Source of the DNA: Ignavibacteriota bacterium | GTDB lineage: Bacteria > Bacteroidota > Ignavibacteria > UBA10030 > UBA6906 | NCBI GenBank assembly: GCA_003158475.1 | Contig: PMJR01000144.1 | Coordinates: forward strand, 37,935 to 78,499 | Direction: 5' to 3' | Length of the DNA stretch: 40,565 nucleotides | Shown here: positions 35,043 to 39,046 of the stretch, piece after piece | Layout of the letters: the number at the start of each line of letters is the position of its first letter | How positions within the stretch are numbered: the stretch's first letter is position 1 | Position numbers and translations under genes: made by a program | Notes under the pieces: generated by a model | What the model saw: the letters and a program-made list of their open reading frames with translations, nothing else | Databases searched by the model: none | What the model was told of the DNA's origin: nothing

Positions 35043-36422
35043 TCAGTCCTCCACTTTAAGTCCGTAACGCTTGATCTTCAGGTAGAGCGTCTTCTTGCTG
35101 ATCCCAAGAGCCTCGGCGGTTTTTGTCCGGCTGTATTTGTGCTGCTGGAGCATCCGTTCGATATGTTCGCGTTCCAGGTCCTCCAGCGAGCCGCCGTCCC
35201 CCGCCGATCCCGGGGCAACGGGTTCCCCCGCGCGGAGGGGCCGGTCCGGCCTGTGGAAGTACAACGCCAGGTCGTTCGCCTCGATCGTCTCGCCCATGGA
35301 GAGGAGGATCGCACCCTCGAGCGCGTGCTCGAGCTCCCGGACGTTCCCCGGCCATTCGTAATCCATCAGCACGCGTAACGCAGAGGGAGAGAGCTTCTTG
35401 ACGTTTTTCGTCTTGGCCTTCCGCTGGAGGAAATAGTCTGCAAGGACCGGGATGTCCTCCTTCCGGTCGCGGAGAAGCGGAACCTGGAGCGTGATGACGT
35501 TCAGCCGGTAGAGGAGATCCTCGCGGAATCGCCCCGCCCGCACCTCCTCGCGGAGATCCTTGTTTGTCGCGCACACGACACGGACGTCCACGGTAAGGAG
35601 GTTCGTCCCCCCCACCCGGCGGAATTCGCCGGTCTCGAGGAAACGGAGAAGCTTGGGCTGGATTGCAGGACTGATGTCCCCCACTTCGTCAAGGAAGAGC
35701 GTCCCCCCATTCGCCACTTCGACGAGACCCTGCTTCGTCGCCACGGCATTAGTAAACGCACCTTTCTCATGCCCGAACAATTCGCTCTCCAGGAGCGTGT
35801 CGGGAATCGACGCGCAGTTGACTGCGACGAACGGACGGTTGTTCCTCGGACTCCTGCGGTGGATCAGGCTCGCAATCAATTCCTTCCCCGTTCCGCTCGC
35901 TCCCTGGACGAGGACGAACGAATCGCTTTCAGCGAAGCGGGTGGCGCTCTGGATCAGCTTGAGGAAGACGGGCGCCTGGCCGATAAGTTCGGAGTTCCCC
36001 GCTTTCCTGGTCAGCTCGCTTTTCATCAGCTTGTTATCGATGAAAAGCTGCTTCCTCTCTATGGCGCGGTGAATCGTGTTGAAGAGTTCATCGATATCGT
36101 ACGGTTTCGCAAGAAAATCGTACGCCCCCATCTTAATCGTCTCGATGGCGGTCTTTATGTCGGCGTAGTTGGTGAGTATGATGACTTGCGTGGTGGGGGA
36201 GTATTCCTGGACGAACTTGAGGACCTCAATGCCGTTGACGCGGGGCATGCGGATGTCGAGGAGCACGACATCATAGACCTTGGCCTGGATCCTATTGATA
36301 GCCTCTCCGCCGTCCGCAGCGACATCAACGGAGAATTCATCCGATTCAGAGAGCTCGCTTTCCAGCAGTACCCTGAGGGGTTCTTCGTCGTCGACGATCA
36401 GGAGGTTGTATTTTTTTCCCAT
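35043..36422 (-). CDS. NtrC-family response regulator with GAFTNA loop
   Basis: 459 residues: receiver with phospho-Asp56 (VVLLDIRMPRVNG), AAA+ domain with Walker A GASGTGKE and Walker B GGTLFLDEVGD, and a FIS-type HTH (YSRTKTAEALGISKKTLYLKIKRYG). The sigma-54 contact loop reads GHEKGAFTNAVAT, that is GAFTNA instead of GAFTGA, whereas the paralogue at 21606 is canonical. It may still activate sigma-54 or may have a modified role. The upstream single receiver gene ends 10 bases before its ATG, so both are one unit. No SD is obvious. Confidence 0.92.
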   Translation of the reverse strand: MGKKYNLLIVDDEEPLRVLLESELSESDEFSVDVAADGGEAINRIQAKVYDVVLLDIRMPRVNGIEVLKFVQEYSPTTQVIILTNYADIKTAIETIKMGAYDFLAKPYDIDELFNTIHRAIERKQLFIDNKLMKSELTRKAGNSELIGQAPVFLKLIQSATRFAESDSFVLVQGASGTGKELIASLIHRRSPRNNRPFVAVNCASIPDTLLESELFGHEKGAFTNAVATKQGLVEVANGGTLFLDEVGDISPAIQPKLLRFLETGEFRRVGGTNLLTVDVRVVCATNKDLREEVRAGRFREDLLYRLNVITLQVPLLRDRKEDIPVLADYFLQRKAKTKNVKKLSPSALRVLMDYEWPGNVRELEHALEGAILLSMGETIEANDLALYFHRPDRPLRAGEPVAPGSAGDGGSLEDLEREHIERMLQQHKYSRTKTAEALGISKKTLYLKIKRYGLKVED

Positions 36423-36432
36423 GCGAGGAGGG

Positions 36433-36813
36433 TCATTCGCTCAGGACACGCTCGATGGTTGTCAGCAGGTCGACGAGGTCGTACGGTTTGCTGACAAAAT
36501 CATCAGCCCCCAGCTTCTTTGATTCGATCGCATTCTTGAGATCGGCGAACCCTGTCAGCATGACCACTTTGGTCTTGGCGTGCTTTTCCTTGATGAACTT
36601 CAGGACCTCGAATCCATTCATCCTCGGCATCTTGATATCGAGCAACACGAGGTCGAAAGGCGTCTTCTCCACTTCACTGATGGCCTCATCGCCGTCCGCG
36701 GCGGCTTTCACATCGTATCCTTCGTTGGCAAGCTCTCCGCTCAACACTGTCCGTAGGGCATCCTCGTCGTCAACGACCAGAATGGTGCTTTTCTTGGTAG
36801 CCGGATTGGTCAT
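36433..36813 (-). CDS. Single-domain response regulator (CheY-like receiver)
   Basis: 126 residues, receiver only. Acid pocket VVDDED, phospho-Asp59 in LVLLDIKMPRMNG, conserved Thr in VMLTGFADL and Lys in DDFVSKPYD. ATG 36813 is chosen for GGAG five bases upstream; the frame is open to 36873 without an SD. No output domain, so it acts by protein contact or as a phosphorelay intermediate. It precedes the GAFTNA regulator and diverges from the REC-DHp gene, suggesting one signalling circuit. Confidence 0.93.
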   Translation of the reverse strand: MTNPATKKSTILVVDDEDALRTVLSGELANEGYDVKAAADGDEAISEVEKTPFDLVLLDIKMPRMNGFEVLKFIKEKHAKTKVVMLTGFADLKNAIESKKLGADDFVSKPYDLVDLLTTIERVLSE

Positions 36814-36881: not shown

Positions 36882-36910
36882 ATAATAGGCAAAGAATTGG
36901 ACAAAATCAA
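36882..36910 (-). promoter_or_regulatory. Candidate promoter of the receiver / NtrC-like pair
   Basis: Minus strand: -35 TTGATT (36905-36910), 17-base spacer, -10 TATTAT (36882-36887). Predicted start near 36875, leaving about 60 bases of leader before ATG 36813. Confidence 0.65.
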
Positions 36911-36960: not shown

Positions 36961-36989
36961 TTGCATTTTTTTCCATGAAATACTATAAT
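36961..36989 (+). promoter_or_regulatory. Strong promoter giving a predicted leaderless mRNA
   Basis: -35 TTGCAT (36961-36966), 17-base spacer, consensus -10 TATAAT (36984-36989). Six bases (GGAACC) separate the -10 from ATG 36996, so the usual start position is the A of the ATG. There is no room for an SD. Confidence 0.75.
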
Positions 36990-36995
36990 GGAACC

Positions 36996-37682
36996 ATGTC
37001 CGTCCCCCCCCCGATACGGGTCCTGTTTGTCGACGACGACACAAGCTACATGGCCGTCGCCCAGCACCTCCTCTCAAAATACCAGGGGACGAAGTTCGAT
37101 ATCCTCTGGAAGCAGAACGGTCGGGGGGCTCTGGAAGTGCTCGGACAGAACCCCGAAATCGACCTCATTCTGATGGACTACCACCTCCCCGAGGACAACG
37201 GGCTCGAGGTGACCCGCCAGATCCGGGAAAAGAACATCAATATCCCGATCATTTTCCTCACATCGAACAGGGATTTCCGGCTCGCGATCGAGGCGATGAA
37301 ATTCGGCGTGGAGGACTACCTCGTCAAGGACGAGGCGGTCGATTCGGTCCTTCCGCGTACGATTGTCAACATACTCGAACGCGTGCGGCTCAAGAAACGG
37401 ATCGCCGAGCGGGTGAAGGCGGACCTGATCGCGAAGACCAGGACAAACGCGATCAAGGAGCTCATCGTCACGGTGTGCCATGAATTCAACAACCCGCTGG
37501 CGGCAATCAAGATCAGCACCGATATACTCCTGCGGCAATCCCTCACCCCCGGCGAGCGCTCTGTCGTCGAGGCGATGGACCGGAATGTGGGGCTTGTGGA
37601 AAAGGAAATCGCCCGCCTGAGGGATCTTGACTTCGACACACCTGCGCCCCCCCCCGGCGGAGAAACGGGAAATGCAGGGTGA
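36996..37682 (+). CDS. Receiver plus histidine phosphotransfer (DHp) protein without ATPase domain
   Basis: 228 residues. Residues 1-125 form a receiver: FVDDDTS acid pocket, phospho-Asp61 in LILMDYHLPEDNG, Thr in IFLTSNRD and Lys in DYLVKDEA. A basic helix (RVRLKKRIAERVKADLIAK) leads to a HisKA-type dimerisation segment with His162 in VTVCHEFNNPLAAIKIS and a second helix to about 215. The protein then ends in a Pro/Gly tail. No HATPase_c domain (N, G1, F, G2 boxes) follows, and no in-frame remnant of one was seen before the downstream repeat. It cannot autophosphorylate alone and may relay phosphate Asp-to-His or scaffold another kinase. ATG 36996 agrees with the promoter; the open frame extends to 36897. 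Confidence 0.88.
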   Translation: MSVPPPIRVLFVDDDTSYMAVAQHLLSKYQGTKFDILWKQNGRGALEVLGQNPEIDLILMDYHLPEDNGLEVTRQIREKNINIPIIFLTSNRDFRLAIEAMKFGVEDYLVKDEAVDSVLPRTIVNILERVRLKKRIAERVKADLIAKTRTNAIKELIVTVCHEFNNPLAAIKISTDILLRQSLTPGERSVVEAMDRNVGLVEKEIARLRDLDFDTPAPPPGGETGNAG

Positions 37683-37821: not shown

Positions 37822-37890
37822 ATGGTCAAACGCAGGCCATACACGGATAAGAACCATATTTCTTTAGTCTTGAAGTCTGTTCGAACGTAG
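37822..37890 (+). pseudogene. Possible N-terminal remnant of an IS200-like (Y1/RAYT-type) transposase
   Basis: A 22-codon frame, MVKRRPYTDKNHISLVLKS then VRT, stops inside the terminator hairpin. The pattern R-R-P-x-x-x-x-x-H-x-x-L-V-L-(K/R)-S resembles the first strand of Y1-type transposase-like proteins related to RAYTs, as I recall them. No SD and no continuation in any frame was found. Its position beside a REP-like repeat fits, but the match is short and from memory. Confidence 0.2.
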
Positions 37891-37921
37891 TCCCGCAAAA
37901 TCGCGGGACTACTTATTTTTT
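37887..37921 (+). terminator. Rho-independent terminator before the Nif3-like gene
   Basis: Perfect 10-bp stem GTAGTCCCGC / GCGGGACTAC (37887-37896, 37903-37912), 6-base loop, then TTATTTTTT. It would end transcripts from the REC-DHp gene. It ends 15 bases before the GTG of the next gene, so that gene needs a promoter I cannot see, or is read through. Confidence 0.85.
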
Positions 37922-37936
37922 AGGGGTGAGGACGCG

Positions 37937-39046
37937 GTGACGGTGAGGGGTATACAGGAGATCATGGAAGCCTGGGCCCCCCTCGATATTGCATGGGAGC
38001 GCGATAACGTGGGGCTCCAGACCGGCGACCCCGATGCACGTGTCCGGGGGATACTCGTCACGCTGGACGTCACGGAATCCGTCGTAACGGAGGCCCTCAG
38101 GCACGGCGCCAATCTCATCGTCAGCCACCATCCCCTCCTCTTCCGTCCCCTGCGGTCCGTCACCACGAGAACTTCGCAGGAACGATGCCTCGCCGCCCTG
38201 CTGCGGAAACGGGTGGCCCTGTATTCGGCACACACCAATCTCGATTTTACGAGCGGGGGGACGAGTTTCGCCCTCGCGGAGACGCTGGGCGTGGCCACGG
38301 AGGGATTTCTGAGGACCCCGTTCATGCTGCAGAACAAGATAGTGACATACGTCCCTCCCTCCCATGCTGACGCGGTCGCAGCGGCGATGGCGGCTGCAGG
38401 AGCCGGCGTGATCGGGGAGTACGAGAGCTGTTCTTTCGGCGCGGAGGGAAACGGGACGTTCCGCGGCAGGGCCGGCACACACCCAGCCCTCGGCCGGTCG
38501 GAGAGGCTGGAACACGTGCAGGAAATACGCCTGGAGATGGTAGTCCCGCGCCGAGCGACGAAGAATGTCGTCCGCGCGATGACCAAGGCGCATCCATACG
38601 AGGAGGTCGCCTACGATGTGTATGCGCTCGAGAACGCCGCCGGGGAGTACGGCATGGGGGCGGTCGGGACGCTCCGGCGCGATGTTCCGCTCCGGGCGTT
38701 CCTAGCCACGGTGCGCAGGGCGCTGGATGCGCCGGCCCTGCGCTGGAGCGGCGATCCACGCACCCCCGTGCACCGCGTCGCGCTTTGCGGCGGGAGCGGC
38801 AGCGAACTCCTTCCCGATGCGATCGCCTCGGGCGCAGAGGTGTTCGTCACCGCCGACGTGCGCTACCATACGTACCACGAAGCGGAGGGATGCATCGCCC
38901 TCGTGGACGCCGGACATTTTGAGACAGAGAATCCGGTCGTCGCGGCCATCGTCGAACGCCTGCGACGGGAAACACTCAGCCGCGGCGCACGCATCCCCGT
39001 GCGCGCGACATCAGTTTCGACGAACCCGGTCAGGTGGAGCATGTAA
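37937..39046 (+). CDS. Nif3/YbgI-family dinuclear metal protein
   Basis: 369-residue NIF3 (DUF34) protein, a widely conserved family often mislabelled GTP cyclohydrolase I type 2, with uncertain activity. Metal ligands are visible: His64/His65 in IVSHHPLLF, Asp103 in AHTNLDF, and His327/Glu331 in AGHFETENP. The middle part (about 125-235) is the PII/CutA1-like insertion seen in longer Nif3 proteins; it contains KAHPYEEVAYDVY. GTG start at 37937 has GAGG five bases upstream. It heads Nif3-zinc ribbon-RNase HI, a pairing of Nif3 with the coiled-coil/zinc-ribbon protein that is common across bacteria. Confidence 0.88.
   Translation: MTVRGIQEIMEAWAPLDIAWERDNVGLQTGDPDARVRGILVTLDVTESVVTEALRHGANLIVSHHPLLFRPLRSVTTRTSQERCLAALLRKRVALYSAHTNLDFTSGGTSFALAETLGVATEGFLRTPFMLQNKIVTYVPPSHADAVAAAMAAAGAGVIGEYESCSFGAEGNGTFRGRAGTHPALGRSERLEHVQEIRLEMVVPRRATKNVVRAMTKAHPYEEVAYDVYALENAAGEYGMGAVGTLRRDVPLRAFLATVRRALDAPALRWSGDPRTPVHRVALCGGSGSELLPDAIASGAEVFVTADVRYHTYHEAEGCIALVDAGHFETENPVVAAIVERLRRETLSRGARIPVRATSVSTNPVRWSM

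Follow-up and report, generated by a model that had tools for sequence, protein, structure and literature searches.

What might a protein do that joins a receiver to the dimerisation and phosphotransfer (DHp) segment of a histidine kinase and then ends, lacking the ATPase (CA) domain on which a kinase depends, and on which partner would it act? Gene A raises this question. It lies in the window, the 40,565-nucleotide stretch of contig PMJR01000144.1 analyzed here, which belongs to an Ignavibacteria MAG of 3.7 Mb that is 97.85% complete. A HisKA protein that lacks an ATPase domain is commonly catalogued as an 'incomplete histidine kinase'. The gene and its parts are as follows.

36996..37682, + strand: REC-DHp protein A, 228 aa, with no CA domain (translation, Pfam, orthologues)
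37020..37343, + strand: receiver domain of A, residues 9-116 (Pfam Response_reg, E 1.7e-21)
37176..37178, + strand: codon of Asp61, the predicted phospho-acceptor (D in 61/67 orthologues)
37347..37532, + strand: one continuous predicted helix, residues 118-179, spanning receiver alpha5, the signalling helix and DHp alpha1 (AlphaFold2 model)
37458..37628, + strand: HisKA/DHp segment, residues 155-211 (Pfam HisKA, 28.2 bits, cut-off 26.9)
37479..37493, + strand: H162-E163-F-N-N166 motif with the predicted phosphatase residues and phospho-acceptor (77/77 keep H, E and N166)

Translation and Pfam searches bear out the sequence-only reading of A as a receiver with Asp61 followed by a HisKA segment with His162. 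Response_reg and HisKA both match the protein, while HATPase_c matches neither A nor any other part of the 95.6-kb contig carrying the window, so that the window holds no complete histidine kinase, as had been claimed. Membership in HisKA (PF00512) lies just above the curated cut-off (28.2 vs. 26.9 bits); members of two related families, f57 and f10, reach 44.9 and 40.7 bits, respectively. The residues that characterize HisKA (a His, an acidic residue at H+1, and Asn or Thr at H+4) are present in A as H162, E163 and N166. Because a CA or CA-like domain is absent, A qualifies neither as a histidine kinase nor as a Rec-controlled histidine kinase (order REC-DHp-CA, of which A has REC and DHp), nor as a Spo0B/ChpT-type protein, in which a CA-like domain follows the DHp; A stops ~19 residues past DHp alpha2. 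Without a CA domain, A is unable to autophosphorylate. Its Pfam architecture, a receiver plus HisKA without HATPase, is that of the archaeal AF_1472 type, and no PAS or GAF domain was matched in A.

An AlphaFold2 model of A (mean pLDDT 87.6, pTM 0.65, 53 sequences) places the receiver ahead of one predicted helix (residues 118-179) that serves as both receiver alpha5 and DHp alpha1; with the second DHp helix (185-209) it would form a two-helix hairpin. The proline-rich tail noted in the sequence-only reading, after residue 214, is disordered in the model (pLDDT ~40) and unconserved among relatives. The A family profile matches LvrB of Leptospira over receiver and DHp together (E 2.4e-16), and structure-library matches are mostly receivers.

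REC-DHp proteins were matched in 37 of 41 genomes (the window's own and 40 relatives; A and its paralogue B pooled), with the closest named loci found in 'Ignavibacteriae bacterium' fen MAGs (L038-L040, 87-90% identity). Lengths range from 214 to 240 aa among the 30 group-A proteins read out, none of which extends into an ATPase domain. Wider sampling of the class, by whole-protein search and not by the H-box, yielded 67 distinct A orthologues. His162, Glu163 and Asn166 never vary, either among the 67 or in 10/10 deeper relatives from two other families (77/77); a separate locus set seeded with the H-box peptide HEFNNPLA (His in 71/71) is biased and was excluded from these counts. Asp61 is D in 61 of the 67 orthologues, N in 4, E in 1 and S in 1, and all six exceptions keep His162, Glu163 and Asn166. 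The H-box is by far the best-conserved part of A, with a weighted entropy of 0.18 bit over its core (residues 158-174) vs. 1.70 for the receiver.

These data bear on whether A is simply a damaged gene. Its domain order, that of a Rec-controlled kinase minus the CA domain, would suit a degraded hybrid kinase or a truncation. Orthologues of similar length and ending occur class-wide, however, at ~35-94% identity and with an invariant H-box, and for this reason we rejected A as a truncation or pseudogene; such decay is extremely improbable, and A is confirmed as a conserved CA-less REC-DHp family. The two outcomes that could have overturned the view of A as a genuine protein, orthologues that continue into an ATPase domain and general substitution of the His and Asp, were both looked for and, among the orthologues read out, not found.

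Comparison of two profile listings for the window's genome gave 37 HisKA matches over the cut-off, 36 of which are followed by HATPase_c; the sole exception is A. A profile search found no free-standing histidine-kinase CA domain in the genome. Of the candidates, one is a fragment of gyrase B (C149), two reach contig ends (C145, C126), and five short ones look, by eye, like anti-sigma or serine-kinase types; what resembled a stand-alone DHp-CA protein at C118 proved to be a kinase truncated by a contig end. A dedicated kinase sharing the H-box of A was likewise rejected (best other match in the genome, 33% identity, E 0.003), and the best-matching kinases are 20-36% identical to A over the DHp segment.

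Two genes are encoded on the strand opposite to A.

35043..36422, - strand: NtrC-type response regulator with Response_reg, Sigma54_activat and a Fis-type HTH (HTH_8) (Pfam)
36433..36813, - strand: single-domain receiver, sdREC, 126 aa (Pfam)

Pfam domains establish both the lone receiver and the NtrC-type regulator divergent from A that had been described from the sequence alone. The regulator has all three domains of its class, with the sigma-54 contact loop GAFTNA instead of the canonical GAFTGA; over 90 aligned rows the loop reads G[AS]FT[NSD]A, never with the canonical G at the fifth position. The genome encodes rpoN. Across the order, the identity of sdREC is about 72-99%, and the protein looks like a copy of the receiver of the NtrC-type protein, since that receiver is its next-best match in its own genome (50% identical).

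Where the upstream flank is long enough, A almost always has the divergent sdREC-NtrC pair as its neighbour, even where A identity falls to 38-50%. There are two exceptions: in family f3, A and the pair are on different contigs, and in genome G024 the pair persists while A is gone and an ispE-like gene takes its place. Linkage of a REC-DHp gene to NtrC takes three unrelated forms, namely the divergent pair, a tandem REC-DHp-NtrC behind ftsZ, and a tandem elsewhere. In family f10, REC-DHp lies behind ftsA-ftsZ and is separated by 4 bp from the NtrC-type gene that comes next (L171, L203, L217, L218); at three more f10 loci (L204-L206) the same REC-DHp protein is present, masked in the gene listing by a longer reverse-strand frame. 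In family f57 (L207-L210), the two genes abut or overlap at a third location. None of the three arrangements has a histidine kinase gene between or beside REC-DHp and NtrC, and no full REC-DHp-CA protein, the kind of ancestor from which the CA domain might have been lost, was found neighbouring NtrC. Putative DHp-facing residues (L14, V/L17, L18, E21 and KPYD in approximate RR468 numbering) are common to the sdREC and NtrC receivers and missing from the receiver of A. That A belongs with the neighbouring NtrC-type regulator is supported.

The f10 loci (L171, L203-L206, L217, L218) lie directly downstream of a mur-ftsQ-ftsA-ftsZ cluster, a location that suggests a link with cell division or envelope synthesis.

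The 182-bp gap between A and sdREC carries a promoter-like pair on each side, recognisable by eye across relatives, and a hairpin follows A.

36882..36910, - strand: promoter-like TTGATT-17-TATTAT for sdREC-NtrC (by eye and by E. coli consensus scan; relatives similar)
36961..36989, + strand: promoter-like TTGCAT-17-TATAAT for A (by eye on 54 intergenic sequences; many relatives similar; missed by the E. coli consensus scan)
37887..37912, + strand: terminator-like hairpin with T-rich tail after A (weak: 1 found in the scan vs. 1.4 expected by chance)

The -10-like box of the putative A promoter ends 6 nt before the ATG in the window, and is close to the start in many relatives; the transcript of A is thus probably leaderless or nearly so. 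Given the terminator-like hairpin behind it, A is probably transcribed alone. Some relatives among L038-L104 have a TACCTTT-like box that resembles Bacteroidota promoters. The element GCGGGACTAC occurs in three exact copies in the window (37887-37912, 38540-38549), two of them in the hairpin after A; allowing ≤1 mismatch there are 8 matches vs. 2.9 expected, and it is possibly a small dispersed repeat.

Most relatives encode a second protein, B, with the same length and architecture as A and, in most, 33-43% identity to it; among the short REC-DHp-like types, the window's own genome holds only A and B. B has lost the His in 19/20 proteins and kept the receiver Asp in 19/20 (E in one), and its entropies are the reverse of those of A (receiver 1.23, H-box 2.14). 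The single B with a His at the site (L137) has a Ser at H+4. B genes (L002/L126-L145) often follow, at a distance of a few bases, a giant histidine kinase (up to ~1,800 aa) that includes a GAF region, and in many genomes B precedes a carbon-nitrogen-hydrolase-like gene. In our tree, A and B each form one branch and are sisters (support of 87 for A+B). The f10, f57 and C-type proteins fall outside A+B, and since all of them keep the His, this residue was probably ancestral and then lost in B. Both tandem forms (f10 and f57) lie outside A+B, and a CA-less REC-DHp beside NtrC is therefore probably older than the A/B duplication. Further short REC-DHp-like proteins of the class include the C-type, with H-E-L-N-N, the E- and Q-types, without the His, and the D-type, which adjoins hrcA and reads H-H-[VI]-N-N, with the Glu lost and the Asn kept. 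The D-type gene is beside hrcA in L245, L246, L247, L249, L252 and L254, several of which also have grpE and dnaJ, a hint of a kinase-less, phosphatase-like form tied to the heat-shock repressor locus.

We tentatively favour the explanation that A is a receiver-gated DHp that dephosphorylates, and perhaps also phosphorylates, NtrC and sdREC, with the NtrC-type regulator as its dedicated partner. Asp61 of A would receive its phosphoryl group from an unlinked kinase or from a small phosphodonor, and the resulting change would be transmitted through the uninterrupted alpha5-signalling helix to the DHp bundle of A, presumably acting as a dimer. In one state, this DHp would dock on the receiver of NtrC and on the resembling receiver of sdREC and strip the phosphoryl group via His162 and Asn166; reversible transfer to His162 is also conceivable. 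Which way the phosphoryl group flows, that the receiver acts as a gate, and that NtrC rather than another regulator is the target are all inferred. In CrdS, the HisKA kinase of the NtrC-like regulator CrdA, kinase but not phosphatase activity requires the Glu that follows the His, and phosphatase but not kinase activity requires the Asn at H+4 (PMC3510030). The DHp of HK853 has phosphatase activity when isolated; H260A diminishes this activity, and T264 (H+4) is critical for it (PMC5727384). These facts, and the invariance of His, Glu and Asn in A, are why a receiver-gated phosphatase is favoured. NtrC and sdREC are the putative targets because of the linkage and of the receiver residues common to both and missing from the receiver of A; the exceptions in f3 and G024 speak against a dedicated partner, as linkage of A to NtrC is not universal. 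Phosphorylation of the receiver, moreover, cannot be essential everywhere, since Asp61 is lost in 6/67 orthologues.

The invariant H-E-x-x-N motif would suit a relay and a receiver-gated phosphatase equally. What speaks most strongly against a pure phosphatase is Glu163. Required only for the HisKA kinase reaction (PMC3510030) and yet invariant (77/77), this residue suggests that some CA domain phosphorylates His162. That domain might be supplied, in a mixed dimer or by docking, by an unlinked kinase, with A then donating to NtrC or sdREC and its receiver regulating access. The other 36 HisKA domains of the genome all have HATPase_c, but no kinase is linked to REC-DHp in any arrangement seen, and the low identity of the best kinase DHp segments gives no sign of a dedicated mate; such phosphorylation in trans is rather unlikely. 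Passage of the phosphoryl group from a kinase to Asp61, then to His162 and finally to sdREC or NtrC, the relay hub put forward in the sequence-only reading, draws on the presence of Asp61 and His162 together in most orthologues and of two receivers among the neighbours. It is weakened by the six orthologues that have replaced Asp61 and kept His162, and by the receiver of A, which is without the DHp-facing residues common to sdREC and NtrC. The analogous kinase NmpS leaves its own receiver unphosphorylated and can do without Asp59 (PMC6211767). Since Asp61 can be lost in evolution, and since the receiver Asp of NmpS is neither required nor a target of its own DHp, we regard a relay through Asp61 as quite improbable. 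A receiver-controlled A dimer might instead act as a scaffold that binds NtrC or a kinase without phosphoryl chemistry, as B presumably does. B keeps the architecture and the receiver after loss of the His, and other short REC-pseudoDHp paralogues of the class are also without it, but in A the H-box is the most conserved part, the opposite of B, and a purely structural role is about as improbable as the hub.

The receiver-gated phosphatase that we favour has parallels in several known systems. The best functional one is NmpS/NmpT/NmpR, with A resembling an NmpS without its CA domain. The NmpRSTU system of Myxococcus xanthus (PMC6211767, PMC11841059) likewise brings together a REC-DHp protein (NmpS), NmpT, which consists of receivers only, and an NtrC-like regulator, and nmpR of Anaeromyxobacter is read in the direction opposite to nmpS. 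Unlike A, NmpS is an autophosphorylating kinase with a CA domain; of the two receivers in NmpT, the first is similar to that of NmpS, whereas sdREC resembles the NtrC receiver; and the upstream kinase NmpU is linked in the Nmp system, whereas none is linked to A. In LvrB, the prototype Rec-controlled histidine kinase, from Leptospira (8vc9; PMC13269768), receiver alpha5 also runs into a signalling helix and DHp, but a CA domain is present, whereas A ends after DHp alpha2. In CrdS/CrdA, in the HK853 DHp and in EnvZ without its catalytic domain, which share the H-E-x-x-N/T motif with A, a DHp by itself is enough to dephosphorylate the cognate regulator; CrdS, HK853 and EnvZ are naturally full kinases, whereas A is a natural CA-less version. 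With Spo0B and ChpT, A would share DHp-type phosphotransfer without autokinase activity. Spo0B keeps a CA-like domain and has no receiver, and the earlier likening of A to Spo0F and Spo0B in one polypeptide loses force, as A has no such domain. ChpT likewise keeps a CA-like domain and has no receiver (PMC3433190).

Archaeal regulators with HisKA and no HATPase, such as AF_1472, combine a receiver with HisKA, as A does; for these, dimerisation was suggested and phosphatase activity raised, and as of 2018 the class was unstudied and its partners unknown (PMC5847659). They differ from A in being archaeal and in having PAS/GAF domains, whereas A is bacterial, consists of REC-DHp only and has a conserved linked NtrC-type partner. 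A search of the open-access literature by architecture words returned nothing on bacterial REC-HisKA proteins without HATPase beyond the archaeal survey, an absence that is no proof.

Gene A thus represents a bacterial family that is conserved, keeps its motif invariant, and comes with a recurrently linked partner regulator and a natural control, B, in which the His is lost; the role of a kinase-less DHp is therefore directly testable. In this Ignavibacteria lineage, the NtrC-type regulator adjoins a kinase-less DHp in place of a kinase gene. It is possible, if somewhat doubtful, that a kinase-less receiver-DHp replaced the usual NtrC sensor kinase lineage-wide, as a receiver-gated phosphatase or phosphotransferase, and radiated into the paralogues A, B, C, D, E and Q, some of them His-less; kinase-less DHp proteins would then be general controllers of response regulators.
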